From Candidatus Sumerlaeia bacterium (GTDB lineage: Bacteria > Sumerlaeota > Sumerlaeia > SLMS01 > JAHLLQ01): a stretch of DNA of 64,000 nt. Each line of letters begins with the position of its first letter. The stretch's first letter is position 1. The DNA lies in contig JANQSL010000248.1 in the NCBI GenBank assembly GCA_028284075.1, forward strand, positions 1-64,000. Direction: 5' to 3'. Positions 40,042-47,416 of the stretch are shown piece after piece. Both the position numbers and the translations under genes were made by a program. Below the pieces are notes generated by a model. It searched no databases. It was not told the DNA's origin and saw only the letters and a list, made by a program, of their open reading frames with translations.

Positions 40042-40446
40042 AGTCTTCTCTCCAGACATCCCGTTCCGGCCGATGGACAGGTGGATTCTCCACTCGGGTC
40101 AGACTTCCTTCCCTGGGTGCCTCTCTTTTGACACGGCAGCGAGGCGGATTGAGCAAGAGACTGTTTGAAGTCTGTGACATGGCAGACACAGGCAAGGAAC
40201 GCAGGCGGTGTTCTTCCACTTTGCCATGTTATTCTCTGACAGCGCCACGCGGGAGACTGTATGGAGTCAGCTCTTAAGTCGCGACAGTGGGAATTGCTCT
40301 CGCGACTCGTAAATTCAATTTCTCAAAGGTTTTCTGCATAGTGGAGATACGTATTTTGATTGAGTTGCTTCCATGATAGTTGTCTTAACTGCGTTGCGAT
40401 TTTGGAAATCGAGGAAATTTTCAATCTCAAGGGAGGATCATCGTAC
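40042..40446. other. 405-bp intergenic region upstream of the acyl carrier gene
   Basis: No coding sequence is convincing in this stretch. It is more AT-rich towards the right end. It contains the inverted repeat at 40277-40307 and must carry the promoter of the ACP cassette. I found no sigma-54 type -24/-12 pair and no convincing -35/-10 pair, nor a terminator for recD2. Confidence 0.6.
40277..40307. repeat. Inverted repeat upstream of ACP cassette
   Basis: AGTCGCGA (40277-40284) and its exact complement TCGCGACT (40300-40307) flank 15 nt. No T run follows on either strand, so it is not a typical terminator. It may be an operator for the cassette starting 139 nt downstream. Confidence 0.5.
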
Positions 40447-40713
40447 ATGCCGGACAGGCAGCAAGTGATCGAAACCATGAAGGAGGCTCTGGAGTCGAGA
40501 ACCTACATGTCACTGAAGGTCGACGAAATTGGCGAGGATACAAGCCTGATCGACGATCTCGGCCTGGATTCGTTTGCGATTCTTCAATTGGTAACCGCCC
40601 TGGAGGAGTCCTTCAGTATTAAGATTGATTCCGACGACTTTGAACTTTCGCTCTTCAGATCGGTCGGAAAACTTGTCGACCTTGTACTGGAAAAGCATGG
40701 CGACAACGATTGA
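40447..40713 (+). CDS. Acyl carrier protein
   Basis: An 88-residue acidic ACP-family carrier. The phosphopantetheine attachment Ser42 lies in LIDDLGLDSFAILQL, followed by ALEESFSIKIDSDDFEL, the usual helix II/III wording. Start ATG 40447 has GGGAGGA 9 nt upstream. It overlaps the acyl ligase start by 17 nt. It carries an acyl or amino-acyl intermediate made by that ligase, and not necessarily fatty-acid synthesis, since no fab gene is near. The same gene order (ACP then AMP ligase, then two hydrolases) is known from exosortase A-associated clusters. Confidence 0.9.
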   Translation: MPDRQQVIETMKEALESRTYMSLKVDEIGEDTSLIDDLGLDSFAILQLVTALEESFSIKIDSDDFELSLFRSVGKLVDLVLEKHGDND

Positions 40714-42220
40714 ACTACTGGCAAGAAATGCCGCTGAGTATCCTCATGACCTTTTTCTGGTAGAAGGACCGCGGAAGTTCACTTTTTCGGACTTCCGGAG
40801 TCGGGTTCTTGACCTTGGAGAAAAACTTGCCTCTCTTGGGGTTGGAGAGGGTTCCGTGGTTGTCCTGATAATGACGAACTCAGTGGAGTTCGTTATCGGT
40901 CTGCTCGCATCTCATCACTGCGGTGCCGCGGTGTTACCATTTCCTCCGCGATCCACTCCCGCTGAGACGCGGGATATTCTGGAGCAGGCCAATTGCTCGG
41001 CGGTTCTGACAACTCCTTCCCTTCTTGAGCACAGTCATCTTGCAGGCGTGGCGAGTGAGGCGAGAATATCCCCTTTCGTGATAACGGTTCGAGCTGTCGA
41101 CCCGAAATCCCTCGAAGTCATGATCACGCTGGATGGCACAGTCCGCCGTGATCAAATGCTCAATGAAGTTTTGCTGTTGATGCCCACATCGGGAACGACG
41201 GGCGAGCCCAAGCTTGTCATGTTAAGCGAATATCACCTTCGCACAAACGCGAAGTCCTTTAGTACGGCAATGGAACTCAAGAGAAGGACAGAGGTCTTTT
41301 ACAGCGCCCTTCCTCTTTATCATATTTTTGCGATGTCAGTTCATCTGTTTCCCGCATTGATTCTGGCCGGGACTCTCATTGTTGATCCTGACCCCTTCTT
41401 CGTTCGAGATTTCGTCGACGGTATTAATCGGCATGAGGCGACGCTGACTGCCTGCGTCCCGTATATGGCCCGGCTCCTTGCGGATTCATCGCTGACTTTG
41501 AATCTCTCGGGGAAGAGTTTGCGATACATCATTCTCTCTGGTGACAACACTCCCGAAAAGGTCGTTTGCAGTCTCAGGCAGCATACGTCGACGATTCGAT
41601 ACGTCAGATCCTACGGTCTCACTGAAGCCGCGCCTCGCGTTGCTATAGCGCCACCCCGGGATTTTTCAGTTCCTGAAGGCAGTGTCGGGAAGCCTTTGCC
41701 TGGCGTTGATATCCGGATTATGTCGGAGAGCGGGTTTCCACAATCTTCAGGGCAGGAGGGAGAAATCCAGGTCAGAAGCCCATCCACCATGGCCGGTTAC
41801 TACAGGAACTCCGAGCTGACTGCGGAAACAGTTGTTGGAGAATGGCTCAAGACGGGAGATATGGGCTTTCTCGATGATCTGGGTTACCTTTTTGTCTCGG
41901 GACGGAAGAAGAACATTATCATCCGCGGAGGTGAAAACATCAGTCCGGAGGAGGTCGAGTCCGTTCTTCTTTCGATTCCCGGTATTCATGAAGCAGTGGT
42001 TGTTGGAAAGCCGGATCCGCTTTTGGGTGAGGTGCCTGTGGCTCTTGTTGCCGCTGATGCAGACTTCTCCCTGCCCGATGTCAGGCGTTATTGCCGCACT
42101 CATCTCAGTTCACTGAAACTTCCCGTCGATTTCATCTGCATCAATAGCATTCCCAGGCTCGCCAACGGAAAAATCGATCGTGTGAGGCTTCGCCGCGAGT
42201 ATTCTGAGATACGGACATGA
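40697..42220 (+). CDS. AMP-forming acyl-CoA/acyl-ACP ligase, exosortase A-associated type
   Basis: A 507-residue ANL-superfamily adenylating enzyme. P-loop-like A3 motif MPTSGTTGEPK (about residues 162-172), A5 SYGLTEAAPRVAI, A7 EWLKTGDMGFLDDLGYL, A8 FVSGRKKNIIIRGGENISP and the catalytic Lys492 of LANGKIDR are all present, so it should be active. It would activate a carboxylic acid as AMP ester and load it on CoA or, more likely here, on the ACP encoded just upstream. Substrate unknown. Followed by the first hydrolase-like gene with a 4-nt overlap. Confidence 0.92.
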   Translation: MATTIELLARNAAEYPHDLFLVEGPRKFTFSDFRSRVLDLGEKLASLGVGEGSVVVLIMTNSVEFVIGLLASHHCGAAVLPFPPRSTPAETRDILEQANCSAVLTTPSLLEHSHLAGVASEARISPFVITVRAVDPKSLEVMITLDGTVRRDQMLNEVLLLMPTSGTTGEPKLVMLSEYHLRTNAKSFSTAMELKRRTEVFYSALPLYHIFAMSVHLFPALILAGTLIVDPDPFFVRDFVDGINRHEATLTACVPYMARLLADSSLTLNLSGKSLRYIILSGDNTPEKVVCSLRQHTSTIRYVRSYGLTEAAPRVAIAPPRDFSVPEGSVGKPLPGVDIRIMSESGFPQSSGQEGEIQVRSPSTMAGYYRNSELTAETVVGEWLKTGDMGFLDDLGYLFVSGRKKNIIIRGGENISPEEVESVLLSIPGIHEAVVVGKPDPLLGEVPVALVAADADFSLPDVRRYCRTHLSSLKLPVDFICINSIPRLANGKIDRVRLRREYSEIRT

Positions 42221-42903
42221 GAGTTCTTTACTGCCCCTCTCTATTTGAAGAAAGAAAATCCGCCTATCGGTTTTCTTATTCGATGGATAGAGCCTTTTGT
42301 GAAAAAGGCCATGAATGCCAGCGGATGGATTATAGAGGGACTGGTGAGGCGGCGGGAAGCTTTGCAGAGGTCAGTCTGGAAACAATTTACGAGGATATTG
42401 CCCGATCTGTTCAGAAGGAGCCGGAGATTTTTGTCTGCGTGCGCTTCGGAGCCGCCCTTGTGTCCGGCTTTGTTTCCACGCGGAACGTTCGAACAGGAAC
42501 TCTTGTGATGATCGAGCCCGTCCTGGATGGAAAGGCTTTTTTGAATCACATGTTTCGCAAGCAGAGACTCAAGGATGCGATCAGCGGATCTCCTCCCGCC
42601 AATGATGAAGGATTTACAAATATCGAGGGCTACAAGACAAACAATGCTTTTCTTGAGCAAGTCAGGAACTTCGATTTTTCAAAGGCAACCGAAGGACTGG
42701 CCCGAATCGAAAGGATCTGTTTTGTGTTGATTTCAAAGCAGGCTCAGGAAGACGAGAAGCTTTGTTGTCTGCAAGAGTCACTGAGAGATAGATCCGTTAT
42801 GGTCGATTGTCTGAATTTGGATATTCCTCCCTTTTGGGAGCGTATCCCCATTGCGAATCACACTCAGGCTGCACGTTCAATTGTGGACTTGTGCTGTGAT
42901 TAG
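42217..42903 (+). CDS. Alpha/beta-hydrolase-like protein without nucleophile Ser (exosortase 'hydrolase 2' like)
   Basis: A 228-residue protein. It opens MRVLYCPSLFEERKSAYR, then MDYRGTGEAAGSF, the fold's typical second-strand turn. Where catalytically active relatives have G-x-S-x-G, it has C74-V-R76-F-G78: VCVRFGAALVSG. An Arg in this place is also how I recall the exosortase A-associated hydrolase 2 group. The usual His-containing C-terminal motif is not clear. It may be a structural or substrate-presenting partner of hydrolase 1 rather than an enzyme. Its ATG overlaps the ligase stop (ATGA). Family call by fold and context. Confidence 0.68.
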   Translation: MRVLYCPSLFEERKSAYRFSYSMDRAFCEKGHECQRMDYRGTGEAAGSFAEVSLETIYEDIARSVQKEPEIFVCVRFGAALVSGFVSTRNVRTGTLVMIEPVLDGKAFLNHMFRKQRLKDAISGSPPANDEGFTNIEGYKTNNAFLEQVRNFDFSKATEGLARIERICFVLISKQAQEDEKLCCLQESLRDRSVMVDCLNLDIPPFWERIPIANHTQAARSIVDLCCD

Positions 42904-43732
42904 AAAAATCGACACACTGCCAAGCGGGGATAGAGCCCTGAGCTTCTGTCTTGATGTGCCCGAGGGTGAGCACAAGATGATAGGGGCTTTGTTTGTGCAT
43001 GCCGCGGATGGAAACAGAACGGGTCCACACCGCCTTTTCGTGGAATTGTCAGAGTTGTTGTTACAGCTGGGTCTTCCAACGATGAGATTTGATTTCTCAG
43101 GGTGTGGTGACAGTGGCGGAAAGCCATCGCGAGACAATATTGATCAGGATTGTGATGACGTTCGCAGTGCAGCCGGGCATTTTCTCCGGCTGACAGGGAT
43201 TCAGAGGGTGTTGTTGATCGGAATCAGCAGGGGGGCGGAGGTTTGTTTCCGCTGTACCGTTCGGGGTTGGGTGCCGGCCGGAGGAATGATACTTCTCTCA
43301 CCACCGGTCGGATCCGCGAAGGCTTCTGTTCGTTTATTTGCCGATTCCCTCCGGCAATACGCACGGAAAGCCCTCGATCCGCGATGTGTCCGGAAGATTA
43401 TCTCGGGTAGAGTCAATTTGCGGCTCATTACACTCAACCTGTCAAGATCTCTTGGGCTGATGTTCCGGTATAAAAAGGAGCCAGTGCCGGAGAAAGCGGA
43501 ACCACAACATGATAGAGCACTCGCTCTGCTGATCTTTGGTTCTTCTGATCCGATTGCTGCCGATTCACTCCGTCATTATCGAACGGTCTGTGATGCGAGG
43601 GGGCTTGATTATGAAGACCTTGTTATTCCAAACGCAAACCACAGTTTTTTTCACTATAAATGGAAAGAACAGATTGGCCGGAAGACTGTCATGTGGCTTC
43701 ATGAAACAGGGCTGTTGGACGATACGCAATGA
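42896..43732 (+). CDS. Alpha/beta hydrolase (exosortase 'hydrolase 1' like)
   Basis: A 278-residue serine hydrolase. Start GTG 42896 overlaps the previous stop. N-terminal GPHRLFVELSELLL and TMRFDFSGCGDSGG are the family hallmarks, nucleophile Ser111 is in LLIGISRGAEV, the acid is probably the Asp in FGSSDPIAADS and the base is His in NANHSFFHYKW. All triad members are present, so it is likely an active thioesterase or transferase releasing a product from the ACP. In exosortase loci this hydrolase pairs with an ACP and ligase as here. Overlaps the PaaK-like gene by 4 nt. Confidence 0.82.
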   Translation: MIRKIDTLPSGDRALSFCLDVPEGEHKMIGALFVHAADGNRTGPHRLFVELSELLLQLGLPTMRFDFSGCGDSGGKPSRDNIDQDCDDVRSAAGHFLRLTGIQRVLLIGISRGAEVCFRCTVRGWVPAGGMILLSPPVGSAKASVRLFADSLRQYARKALDPRCVRKIISGRVNLRLITLNLSRSLGLMFRYKKEPVPEKAEPQHDRALALLIFGSSDPIAADSLRHYRTVCDARGLDYEDLVIPNANHSFFHYKWKEQIGRKTVMWLHETGLLDDTQ

Positions 43733-45039
43733 GTTCTTTTTTTTCAAAGGCGATGCTTGCATCTCGTACCTACTCCAGGGCTTTCGCCGGAATTCGGCGA
43801 GAGTCGGATCGACGCGCCCTTGAGACCTGCAGAGAGAGAAAGCTGCGCCTTTTGATTGAATATGCTTACGAATCGATACCATTTTATCGCGAGCTTTTTC
43901 ATGAGGCGCGCATCAAACCGGCAGACATCCGTTCAACGACGGATCTTTGCCGGATTCCGGTTCTGGAAAAAGACATGGTGCGGCAGCGATACTGGGATTT
44001 CTTTCCTGACGAGATTTCCGCCAGTAGAGTTAACAGAACGTCCGGCAGTACCGGAATGCCTCTTTGCATCCTTTCCGATGAAAGTTCACGAGAGAACAAC
44101 TCCGCTGCTGTTATTCGTGCAAGGCGGGCAGTCGGCATTCCTTTGGTTGGCACTCAAATCCTGAGTCCTCTGCGAACACTCGGACAACGCTCGAAGGCCT
44201 CACACTGGACATTCCTTCAGGGTCTTCACCGGACAAGTTATGTGAATCCGTACATTGATGATGATGAAATCATCCAGAATGGGATCGATGTTCTTGAATC
44301 CCTTTCACGGCACGCTGTTATCGGTCTGACCTCTGCGGTTCTTGCTCTCGCTTTGCGTATACAAAACGGTGTTTTTCCCCGAATCACTCCCGTGGCGGTC
44401 ATGACTATGGGAGAAGGATTGCAGGAGGGAACGCGCGAAGTCCTGAAGGCGGTGTTTCAATGTCCGGTTTCTGATATCTATGCCTGTAACGAGGCCGGAG
44501 ATATGGCTTTTCAGTGCGCTGTGCAGAAGGGCTATCATATCAACATCGATAACGTTGTTCTGGAAGTTGAGAAAAACGGCAAGCCTGCTGAATATGGAGA
44601 GGCAGGCGAGGTTATTATTACCAACCTCAATCGGTTCGCGATGCCTTTTATTCGCTATAGAACTGGAGACAGTGCCGTACTTGCAGGTGAACCATGTCCA
44701 TGCGGATCGAAACTTCCCCTGCTTCAGCAAATCGTGGGGCGCGTCAGCAACGACCTCAAGGTCCCGGGGGGCAAAGTTATTCCCTGGAAAGAAATTAGAG
44801 ACGCAATGGTATTGCCGGGAATTTGCAGATATCAGGTCCGGCAGGACCGGCAGGGAAACCTTCGTGTTCGAATTCAGGAAGTATCAAATCGTTCATCGCC
44901 TGAGATCCACAGAACTCTTTTGTCACGGTTCGAAAGAATCTTTGATGATAGTGTACAGATCGATTTCGAGAGCGTGGAAGATATTCCTCTCGCTCCCAGT
45001 GGAAAGACACACTATGTCGTTTCCGAGTACGCCGGGTGA
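43729..45039 (+). CDS. PaaK/CapK-type adenylate-forming ligase
   Basis: A 436-residue member of the phenylacetate-CoA ligase/CapK group. Motifs: LIEYAYESIPFYRELFHEAR at the N-terminus, RTSGSTGMPL (P-loop, about residues 103-112), VMTMGEGLQEGTREVL, IYACNEAGDMAFQC and FIRYRTGDSAVLAGEPCPCG. The C-terminal small domain with a late Lys is shortened, but APSGKTHYV near the end retains one. CapK relatives occur in polysaccharide clusters. It is the second adenylating enzyme of this cassette, so two different acids may be activated. ATG 43729 overlaps the hydrolase stop. Confidence 0.88.
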   Translation: MSSFFSKAMLASRTYSRAFAGIRRESDRRALETCRERKLRLLIEYAYESIPFYRELFHEARIKPADIRSTTDLCRIPVLEKDMVRQRYWDFFPDEISASRVNRTSGSTGMPLCILSDESSRENNSAAVIRARRAVGIPLVGTQILSPLRTLGQRSKASHWTFLQGLHRTSYVNPYIDDDEIIQNGIDVLESLSRHAVIGLTSAVLALALRIQNGVFPRITPVAVMTMGEGLQEGTREVLKAVFQCPVSDIYACNEAGDMAFQCAVQKGYHINIDNVVLEVEKNGKPAEYGEAGEVIITNLNRFAMPFIRYRTGDSAVLAGEPCPCGSKLPLLQQIVGRVSNDLKVPGGKVIPWKEIRDAMVLPGICRYQVRQDRQGNLRVRIQEVSNRSSPEIHRTLLSRFERIFDDSVQIDFESVEDIPLAPSGKTHYVVSEYAG

Positions 45040-45259: not shown

Positions 45260-45336
45260 TGGCGTCCCCGGCAGGATTCGAACCTGCGACCCCAGGATTA
45301 GGAATCCTGTGCTCTATCCAGCTGAGCTACGGGGAC
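45260..45336 (-). tRNA. tRNA-Arg (anticodon CCU)
   Basis: On the minus strand a full cloverleaf can be drawn: acceptor GTCCCCG with CGGGGAC, discriminator G and genomically encoded CCA; D arm GCTC-AGCTGGATA-GAGC; anticodon stem CAGGA/TCCTG with loop TTCCTAA, giving anticodon CCT (reads AGG); five-base variable loop; T arm GCAGG-TTCGAAT-CCTGC. All stems pair. Confidence 0.97.
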
Positions 45337-45463: not shown

Positions 45464-47416
45464 GTGTACCACCGGGCACTACTGCTGACGTCACTCATTC
45501 TCGCTCTTGCCGCTGTGGCACTTGCCCGGAATCGTTCGAGCGAGGGCAATGCCTCTGAGAGACCGTGGCTATGCGAGAGGCTGTGGTTCATTGCTCTCGG
45601 GGTTTACGGCTTCCGATTGATTTTCGAGCTTTCCAGTGGAGGCGGCTTGACGACTGTTGATGACTTCAATCGCGTGGGCTACGCGATGGAGTGGTCACAG
45701 CGACCGTTCTTTGCACAGGCCGATCATCTTTGGCTTACGGGCTCTCATGCGATACTCGGCTCTCTCATTTTTCTGTTCAGAGATCCTCTTGTCGCCACAA
45801 CGATTTGGTCCGCTCTTTCCTGGTCAATCCTGGCTCTTGGGATGTTTGCGATGGGACGTTGTGCTCAAATCAATTCATCGATCGTGGCGGTTGCGGTGGC
45901 ACTTCTCGTTCTTCTACCGGTATCCAAACCTCTTCTTGTAACAGGATTACCGGACGTTCTTCACACCGGCCTGATTCTTTTGGCAGTCGGCAGCATGACA
46001 GCAGTCTTTACACGAGGAGCAGGTTTGACATGGTCATGTCTGCAGAGCTCCGCCTGTCTGACTCTTGCCACAACACTTCGCTTCGAAAGCTGGCTTCTTG
46101 TACCGGTGTACATGGTTGCCTTGGTTGTGCTTGTGAGGCGTATCGGTGGTGAGTCAAAAGTCATTGCTCTTGGCCTGATTCCGTTTCTGTTTCCTGCTCT
46201 CTGGATGGCGAGTAGTTTGAGGAATTTCGGTGATTCTCTTGCTTTCTCCAGACCTCCTCTTAGTCCGTTGTTTCATCACTACACGTTTGGAGGGGAGCTC
46301 CGTCAGAACCCGCTGGCAGTCAATACCCCTGGTGGTCGAGTGATGGATGTCTGGTTTATGCTCAAGACGGGTGCCTGGGTCTTGCTTCCTTTTTTTGTGC
46401 TTGTCGCTGGTCTGGCAAGGCGGGAATTCCGCATCCTTCGTATCGTTCTGCCGGTGACGGGAGGATGGGTTCTGTTGTTGGCTGTTATTGCTTTCCGGAG
46501 TGGCGTTGCGGGTCACTCGCCGGAGCGGTTGTTCCTTCTTCCGCTGGCGGTTCTTCTTTCCGCGATTGTTCATTATATGATCCTTTTGAGGAGGACCTGG
46601 GCTGCAGTGGTTATTTTACTGTCACTGGCCACATATGCAACTTTATTGCATCAACGCTATGGAGGCAGGCCGTTCGAGAACATGGATGCTTCCGCTGTTG
46701 CTGCCGGTCAGCTTCTTCGTCGCGAGTTTGGCAACTCTGCAGTATACCTCGAGCATGTTGACGAACACGAACCGGTCTTCCTTTGGGCCTCTCTGGATCG
46801 CGCTCGCCAGGGCGAGCTTCACGCCATTGCCGCGCACTCGGGTGATCCACGCCGAATTCGTATGATTTGGAAAGACGATCTTCCGGAGGAAATTCTTCGG
46901 GATCCAGGAACTCGTCTTCTGGTGACAGCCGGACTTTCCAAGAAGGTTATTGATGTCGAAGAGTGGCGCCTTCTCGAAACGAATGGTTCGTGGGAGCTCC
47001 GGGCCCGGGAATCGCTTCTGATGTATCAGACTGACGATTCACTGGTTTCAGGTGGAACGGTCGCCGAGCCCACTCTCGTTAACGAATCTGCAGGTCTTGA
47101 GTGGGCAGTGGAAGCTTCGTCTTCTTCCATGACGTGGATTGAAGCGGATGAATTCACAGCGAGGCTGGAGTATGCAGGATACGAAGACTGGCGCATGCCG
47201 ACTCGAGATGAACTGTGGCTGTTGCGTGACACGGGTAGGCTGAACGAACCGTCGATGGACGCACGGTTTTATCCGGCCCATCGCTACGTGTGGTCCCAGG
47301 AAGAGGAGTCTTTTCGTAGTGCATGGCGGATGGATTTGACACGGGAATGGCTTGCTCCCGTCTCCAAGGACACAATTGGCGGAATTCGCCCCGTACGGAT
47401 TTTGGAGGTTAATTAA
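45464..47416 (+). CDS. GT39-like polytopic glycosyltransferase fused to an Lcl (DUF1566) domain
   Basis: A 650-residue protein. About ten membrane helices in the first ~410 residues and an early DDFNRVGYAMEW, with an acidic pair in the first extracytoplasmic loop, as in GT-C glycosyltransferases (GT39/ArnT-like). About 410-545 is a soluble region (AAGQLLRREFGNSAVYLEHV). The last ~100 residues form an Lcl/DUF1566 domain (GLEWAVEASSSSMTWIEADE, YEDWRMPTRDELWLLRDTG, RYVWSQEE, GGIRPVRILE). Start GTG 45464 has GGAG 7 nt upstream. DUF1566 is normally in surface lectin-like proteins, so this fusion is unusual. Sugar donor unknown, likely polyprenyl-linked. Confidence 0.82.
   Translation: MYHRALLLTSLILALAAVALARNRSSEGNASERPWLCERLWFIALGVYGFRLIFELSSGGGLTTVDDFNRVGYAMEWSQRPFFAQADHLWLTGSHAILGSLIFLFRDPLVATTIWSALSWSILALGMFAMGRCAQINSSIVAVAVALLVLLPVSKPLLVTGLPDVLHTGLILLAVGSMTAVFTRGAGLTWSCLQSSACLTLATTLRFESWLLVPVYMVALVVLVRRIGGESKVIALGLIPFLFPALWMASSLRNFGDSLAFSRPPLSPLFHHYTFGGELRQNPLAVNTPGGRVMDVWFMLKTGAWVLLPFFVLVAGLARREFRILRIVLPVTGGWVLLLAVIAFRSGVAGHSPERLFLLPLAVLLSAIVHYMILLRRTWAAVVILLSLATYATLLHQRYGGRPFENMDASAVAAGQLLRREFGNSAVYLEHVDEHEPVFLWASLDRARQGELHAIAAHSGDPRRIRMIWKDDLPEEILRDPGTRLLVTAGLSKKVIDVEEWRLLETNGSWELRARESLLMYQTDDSLVSGGTVAEPTLVNESAGLEWAVEASSSSMTWIEADEFTARLEYAGYEDWRMPTRDELWLLRDTGRLNEPSMDARFYPAHRYVWSQEEESFRSAWRMDLTREWLAPVSKDTIGGIRPVRILEVN

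Follow-up and report, generated by a model that had tools for sequence, protein, structure and literature searches.

A five-gene cassette with two ligases and two hydrolase-like proteins

We analysed a 64,000-nucleotide stretch of the Candidatus Sumerlaeia bacterium genome (assembly GCA_028284075.1, contig JANQSL010000248.1, positions 1 to 64,000; hereafter the window), in which a first-pass annotation had singled out a block of five genes on the plus strand at 40447-45039. The five open frames encode, in this order, an acyl carrier protein (ACP), an AMP-forming acyl ligase (LIG), two hydrolase-like proteins (H2 and H1) and a PaaK/CapK-like ligase (Table 1). The coordinates, gene order and open frames are as that annotation described them, and so are the head-to-tail overlaps of 4-17 nt, which amount in order to 17, 4, 8 and 4 nt. 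From this anatomy the block is predicted to be an operon; scans for promoters and terminators returned predictions no more numerous than in shuffled sequence.

Table 1. Features of the cassette and its flanks (positions in the window)
Feature	Position	Strand	Evidence
Shine-Dalgarno-like AGGGAGGA	40430..40437	+	Read from sequence; 9 nt 5' of ACP start
ACP, stand-alone acyl carrier protein, 88 aa	40447..40713	+	PF00550 (PP-binding) 41.3 bits, cut-off 20.8
LIG, AMP-forming acyl ligase, 507 aa	40697..42220	+	PF00501 (AMP-binding) 230.6 bits, cut-off 29.9
H2, hydrolase-2-like, N-terminally shortened, 228 aa	42217..42903	+	TIGR03101 best match, 59.1 bits, cut-off 202.75; alignments
H2 Arg76 codon, nucleophile elbow VRFG	42442..42444	+	Sequence and alignments; Arg replaces nucleophile Ser
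H1, hydrolase-1-like alpha/beta hydrolase, 278 aa, GTG start at 42896	42896..43732	+	TIGR03100 best match, 65.0 bits, cut-off 168.45
H1 Ser111 codon AGC, nucleophile elbow GISRG	43226..43228	+	Sequence and alignments of distinct H1 copies
PaaK/CapK-like AMP-forming ligase, 436 aa	43729..45039	+	NF045666 (DVU_1553 CoA-ligase family) best, 144 of 300 bits; PaaK models
tRNA-Arg (CCT), probable integration neighbour	45260..45336	-	Other genes beside same tRNA in sister species
Membrane protein with C-terminal Lcl_C domain, possible co-transferred cargo	45464..47416	+	Lcl_C 51.4 bits

The phosphopantetheine-binding Ser of the ACP sits in a GLDSF motif. Another contig of the same genome carries a phosphopantetheinyl transferase (PPTase; PF01648), the enzyme that the first-pass annotation had proposed to look for, and its length and motifs suggest the Sfp type. 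Both components expected of a carrier-protein pathway are thus present.

In LIG the motifs TSGTTGEPK, GRKKN and NGKIDR are all intact. Its closest NCBIfam models are PRK06187 and MenE, and its closest solved structures are MenE and acyl-CoA synthetases. Generic acyl ligase models reach 320 bits against 200 for the exosortase-associated model TIGR03098 (cut-off 592.35), which is also outscored by 16 other ligase models. In a tree LIG stands apart from the ligases of TIGR03098 type found at other H2-H1 loci, a tentative placement given its long branch. A scan of genome contigs for LIG, based on exact 8-residue matches and so of little weight for distant cassettes, retrieved generic ligases only (~24-32% identity), and at the thresholds used neither H1 nor H2 adjoined any of them.

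The fifth gene is sequence kin of PaaK/CapK-type ligases, with intact SGSTG and SGK motifs and matches to PaaK structures (4r1l and others). It differs from them in falling below the cut-off of every named PaaK model, and its top relative in the phylum is 31% identical.

H2 and H1 as a recurrent pair

At E values up to 0.01, the only NCBIfam models matched by H2 and H1 were TIGR03100 and TIGR03101; H1 also exceeded the cut-off of Abhydrolase_6 (37.2 bits). Searches with H2 across 386 genomes, 22 further records and plasmids yielded 16 loci with a high-scoring H2, the window included. H1 adjoined or was fused to H2 in 15 of them, and none was seen in the remaining one, from Rokubacteria (L140).

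When plasmids were searched with the window's own proteins, H1 gave no match and H2 a single weak one in Methylobacterium, which led to a fusion of the two: a single frame of 576 aa in Methylobacterium bullatum (L081) encodes both H2 and H1. A tblastn search with this fusion matched 53 plasmid records, and fused H2-H1 occurs in Methylobacterium, Azospirillum, Rhizobium, Mycetohabitans and others. We inspected 14 fusions, two of them shared with the survey, giving 28 distinct H2 loci; H1 adjoins or is fused to H2 in 27. Such joining of H2 and H1 in one polypeptide offers Rosetta-stone support, of an indirect kind, for a complex. In Rhizobium sp. NLR16a the fusion lies inside a protein of ~1100 aa with more than 500 extra N-terminal residues (L215, 4905-8216).

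A six-gene set recurs around the fusions of Azospirillum, Rhizobium rhizoryzae, Phyllobacterium and Mycetohabitans (plasmid loci L213, L214, L217, L218 and L220), and part of it is visible in Rhizobium NLR16a. It consists of an ACP, an acyl-CoA dehydrogenase, an amino acid--[acyl-carrier-protein] ligase, a DUF1839 protein, a glycoside hydrolase of family 2 and the H2-H1 fusion. The Methylobacterium ligase matched solved amino acid--[acyl-carrier-protein] ligases, including Bll0957, at E = 6e-103 and 3e-99. This alpha- and betaproteobacterial plasmid set shares with the window a carrier protein, a loading ligase, H2 plus H1, and a locus without exosortase; its own features are a seryl-tRNA-synthetase-like loading enzyme, the fused H2-H1 and three extra enzymes. 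Neither the five cassette genes nor, by eye, their immediate neighbours include an acyl-CoA dehydrogenase, a Bll0957-type ligase, DUF1839 or the family 2 glycoside hydrolase. In Shinella (L216) and Rhizobium tumorigenes the fusion lies within glycan loci, and around the Peteryoungia fusion neither context was seen in the region inspected.

The neighbours of H2-H1, which we assigned by Pfam and similarity, are varied. An AMP ligase and an ACP, with or without acyl-CoA dehydrogenase, lie near the pair in L171, L175 and L178. The L175 and L178 clusters thus share H2, H1, AMP ligase and ACP with the window, and differ in having acyl-CoA dehydrogenase, a family 2 glycosyltransferase (L178), an H1 with Cys and an exosortase elsewhere in the genome. 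In L173 (8773-13981), from a genome without detected exosortase, a nonribosomal peptide synthetase (NRPS) module, C-A-PCP, stands directly beside H2 and H1. Glycan settings were recognized in L040 and L172 (glycosyltransferases), L174 (exopolysaccharide genes and two PaaK-like ligases), L216 and L219. Two H2-H1 pairs, L171 and L172, occur on one contig of genome G345, one near an exosortase and two AMP ligases and the other in a glycosyltransferase/DegT aminotransferase cluster.

No description of the H2-H1 pair was found in the literature that we searched. Bcam1334, a TIGR03100-type hydrolase, belongs to the Bcam1330-Bcam1341 exopolysaccharide cluster of Burkholderia cenocepacia, for which the available part of the source (PMC3584217) names no exosortase, ACP or ligase; our comparison with this cluster is by description only.

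H2 lacks the nucleophile and H1 retains a triad

In profile alignment, the conserved Arg of H2 falls exactly over the Ser of the GLSMG elbow in S33 hydrolases of known structure. All 16 survey copies of H2 have Arg at the elbow, a count to be read with the caution that the profile used in the survey derived from Arg sequences, albeit hydrolases with Ser were still retrieved at lower scores. The H2 halves of the 14 fusions have Arg (8), Gly (5) or, in Shinella, Ser (1). The nucleophile is therefore missing, with Arg or Gly in its place, in 27 of the 28 distinct copies, that of the window among them. The His motif usual in the C-terminal region is also absent from the separate H2s, most of which have a Trp-containing motif there. 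Nearly all unpaired hydrolases retrieved with the same profiles keep Ser at the elbow, so that loss of the nucleophile goes with pairing. Single hydrolases with Gly at the elbow (GHGYG, GAGTG) were noticed in members of the phylum (L003, 1477-2331; L030, 1264-2268); these are perhaps other pseudo-hydrolases.

H1 appears to be the catalytic half. Among the survey copies 14 of 15 have Cys at the elbow, as does every one of the 14 fusions; with the two shared copies counted once, this makes 26 of 27 distinct copies, and the sole Ser is that of the window. The Asp and His of the triad are visible in the window (SSD and NANHS, respectively, in the alignment) and in most relatives. The window therefore has both parts of the module, a nucleophile-less H2 followed directly by an H1 with an intact triad. 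Cys serves as the nucleophile of this fold in polyhydroxyalkanoate synthases and in some acyl-transferring relatives of thioesterases. From these alignments and the fusions, we infer that H2 and H1 would form a complex of a non-catalytic partner and a catalytic half.

A cassette probably independent of exosortase

The first-pass annotation likened the first four genes to the accessory enzymes of exosortase A loci (TIGR03098, TIGR03100, TIGR03101 and a small ACP) and called the block an exosortase-like cassette without exosortase. The kinship of the two hydrolases bears out part of this, as TIGR03101 and TIGR03100 are by far their best matches. LIG is not of the TIGR03098 type, and the three proteins, at 200 (LIG), 65.0 (H1) and 59.1 bits (H2), all remain below the equivalog cut-offs of the models that the annotation had proposed to search. 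Two true members of the exosortase A set, from genomes with exosortase, are L138 and L139 (328 and 229 bits). What the window shares with the set is ACP, AMP ligase, overlapping H2 then H1, and, as in L138 and L139, the Arg at the H2 elbow next to H1. It differs in that its scores lie far below the cut-offs, its H1 has Ser where L138 and L139 have Cys, its H2 is shortened, it has an extra PaaK/CapK-like ligase with all genes on one strand, and neither exosortase nor PEP-CTERM protein was found.

The exosortase, noted as missing from the window, is absent from the assembly as far as we can detect: neither TIGR02602 nor PF09721 matched any part of it (4.9 Mb, 275 contigs, ~90% complete). A PEP-CTERM search of the assembly gave a single match exactly at the 16-bit cut-off, in a membrane protein. 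We rejected it as a chance-level match because its E value is 0.196, its tail has no PEP and the tail continues beyond the match. Neither of the findings that the annotation had named as counting against it, an exosortase with a PEP-CTERM set nearby or hydrolases of unrelated families, was made.

One might still suppose an exosortase A accessory set whose exosortase is missing through incomplete assembly or recent loss. The best matches of H2 and H1 and the ~90% completeness would agree with this. Nevertheless, exosortase was found in only 4 of 40 genomes of the phylum, and the 36 without it include the four nearest relatives; two models failed to detect one here, no credible PEP-CTERM protein is present and LIG is of another type. 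Furthermore, 13 H2-bearing genomes were searched with PF09721: an exosortase was detected in six, for one of them through a weak and partial match, and in the other seven there was none. Three of these seven, all with H2-H1 (G391, G087 and G261), are estimated to be 99-100% complete. We thus regard this already disfavoured explanation as very improbable.

The notion of an orphan acyl pathway, offered in the same annotation, is a fair label. To speak of an exosortase cassette, however, is to take exosortase loci for the original setting, which does not suit a pair that is widespread outside them. The exosortase label seems better dropped: H2-H1 has the look of a carrier-protein module that is employed by exosortase loci among others. 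As for those loci, Haft 2006 (PMC1569441) makes no mention of hydrolases or ligases, and N-acyl amino acid synthases have been linked to them (Craig 2011, as cited in PMC7293339).

Origin and genomic site

The GC content of the cassette is 50.8%, compared with 56.0 +/- 0.9% for stretches of equal length elsewhere in the window. The G+C fraction at third codon positions (GC3) is 0.49-0.54 in four of the five cassette genes and 0.60-0.67 in thirteen other genes of the window; the short ACP gene has 0.63. The gene 405 nt upstream of ACP would encode a RecD2-like helicase, to judge by eye from its sequence, and the tRNA-Arg (CCT) gene follows the cassette. In a genome of the same genus (L210, 2611-4519), MoaD and NtrC genes come directly after this tRNA gene and unrelated genes precede it; the flanks of the tRNA therefore vary, and the locus is likely a variable site. 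One of the preceding genes in that genome resembles an AAA/TOPRIM OLD-like ATPase and could be a defence gene. No close relative of H1 or of the PaaK-like ligase was found in the same-genus (80% complete) or same-family genomes. The contig of the sister species stops right after the RecD2 homologue, so an empty site, or adjacency of RecD2 and tRNA, is not demonstrable there.

Beyond the tRNA, the membrane protein gene in Table 1 has an atypical GC3 of 0.53 and is missing from the corresponding position in the sister species. Judging by its hydrophobicity and a DD motif near its start, the product could combine a GT-C glycosyltransferase with the Lcl_C domain. The cassette itself was probably acquired horizontally, a view that fits both its composition and the variable flanks of tRNA-Arg.

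Putative function of the cassette

How might the five proteins work together? The host Sfp-type PPTase would prime the ACP, and LIG would adenylate a carboxylic acid and load it onto the ACP. H1, held by the non-catalytic H2, would then accept the acyl group at its nucleophile, which is Ser in the window and Cys in relatives, before handing it to an acceptor. The PaaK/CapK-like ligase would activate either another acid or a carboxyl group on the acceptor itself, leading to an amide or ester. That the cassette is a horizontally acquired, exosortase-independent acyl-transfer system of this sort is, in our judgement, an evenly balanced proposition. Its weakest point is the acceptor. As many other H2-H1 loci have a glycan setting, the likeliest acceptor would be a glycan, i.e., a component of the envelope or of an exopolysaccharide, a possibility to which we give less than an even chance. 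Otherwise, it would be a small molecule.

Several observations weigh against this acyl-transfer system. With no glycan genes immediately adjoining the cassette, the acceptor is a guess. H2 and H1 of the window are only ~18-26% identical to their relatives, and we found no measured activity for any member of the pair. The Shinella fusion keeps the Ser in its H2 half. The window stands alone among the inspected copies in having Ser rather than Cys in H1, and its H2 is short by ~45 N-terminal residues; the chemistry may therefore differ. Structure prediction run without an alignment was too poor for use (mean predicted local distance difference test score, pLDDT, of 43 for H1 and 40 for H2).

Two other explanations take up some of these observations. 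First, the cassette may be a decaying import, its truncated H2 and substituted H1 marking it as no longer functional, to which its foreign composition would be no obstacle but rather a support. All five frames are open, however, with overlapping starts and intact motifs in the ligase, ACP and PaaK-like protein, and Ser works as a nucleophile in this fold; decay is accordingly improbable to us. Second, H1 with H2 may act as a thioesterase on acyl-ACP, either freeing an acid or amide product that diffuses as a small metabolite or proofreading ACP that carries the wrong load, with no glycan involved. The ordinary-hydrolase Ser-Asp-His triad of the window H1, the NRPS module adjoining H2-H1 in L173 and the lack of sugar genes directly beside the cassette would all suit this proposal. 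On the other hand, the Cys elbow in all 26 other distinct copies of H1 suits acyl transfer at least equally well, and many relatives are housed in glycan loci. We consider the thioesterase explanation unlikely, albeit less so than decay.

Returning to acyl transfer, H2-H1 is paired with AMP ligases, NRPS adenylation domains and seryl-tRNA-synthetase-like ligases, which suggests that what the pair recognises is the charged carrier protein and not a particular ligase. It is attractive to speculate that H2-H1 acts generally as a two-subunit acyltransferase on acyl or aminoacyl groups bound to carrier proteins, composed of a Cys (here Ser) alpha/beta hydrolase and an Arg/Gly pseudo-hydrolase. It would work in NRPS, aminoacyl-carrier-protein and glycan pathways of different phyla and would have been mistaken for an exosortase accessory. 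The window would then present the leanest stand-alone form, with a second ligase. We put this general reading forward tentatively, at slightly less than an even chance.

To our knowledge, the pathway of the Bradyrhizobium-type amino acid:[carrier protein] ligases is still open, and the H2-H1 fusion is a candidate downstream enzyme for the pathway of amino acid--[acyl-carrier-protein] ligases. The names hydrolase 1 and hydrolase 2 are merely positional, coming from their place beside exosortases. The loss of the nucleophile in H2, the Cys of H1, the fusions and the carrier-loading neighbours together suggest a concrete role, namely acyl transfer from a carrier protein, and the five genes of the window, with no other pathway genes attached, would offer a small system for probing that role.

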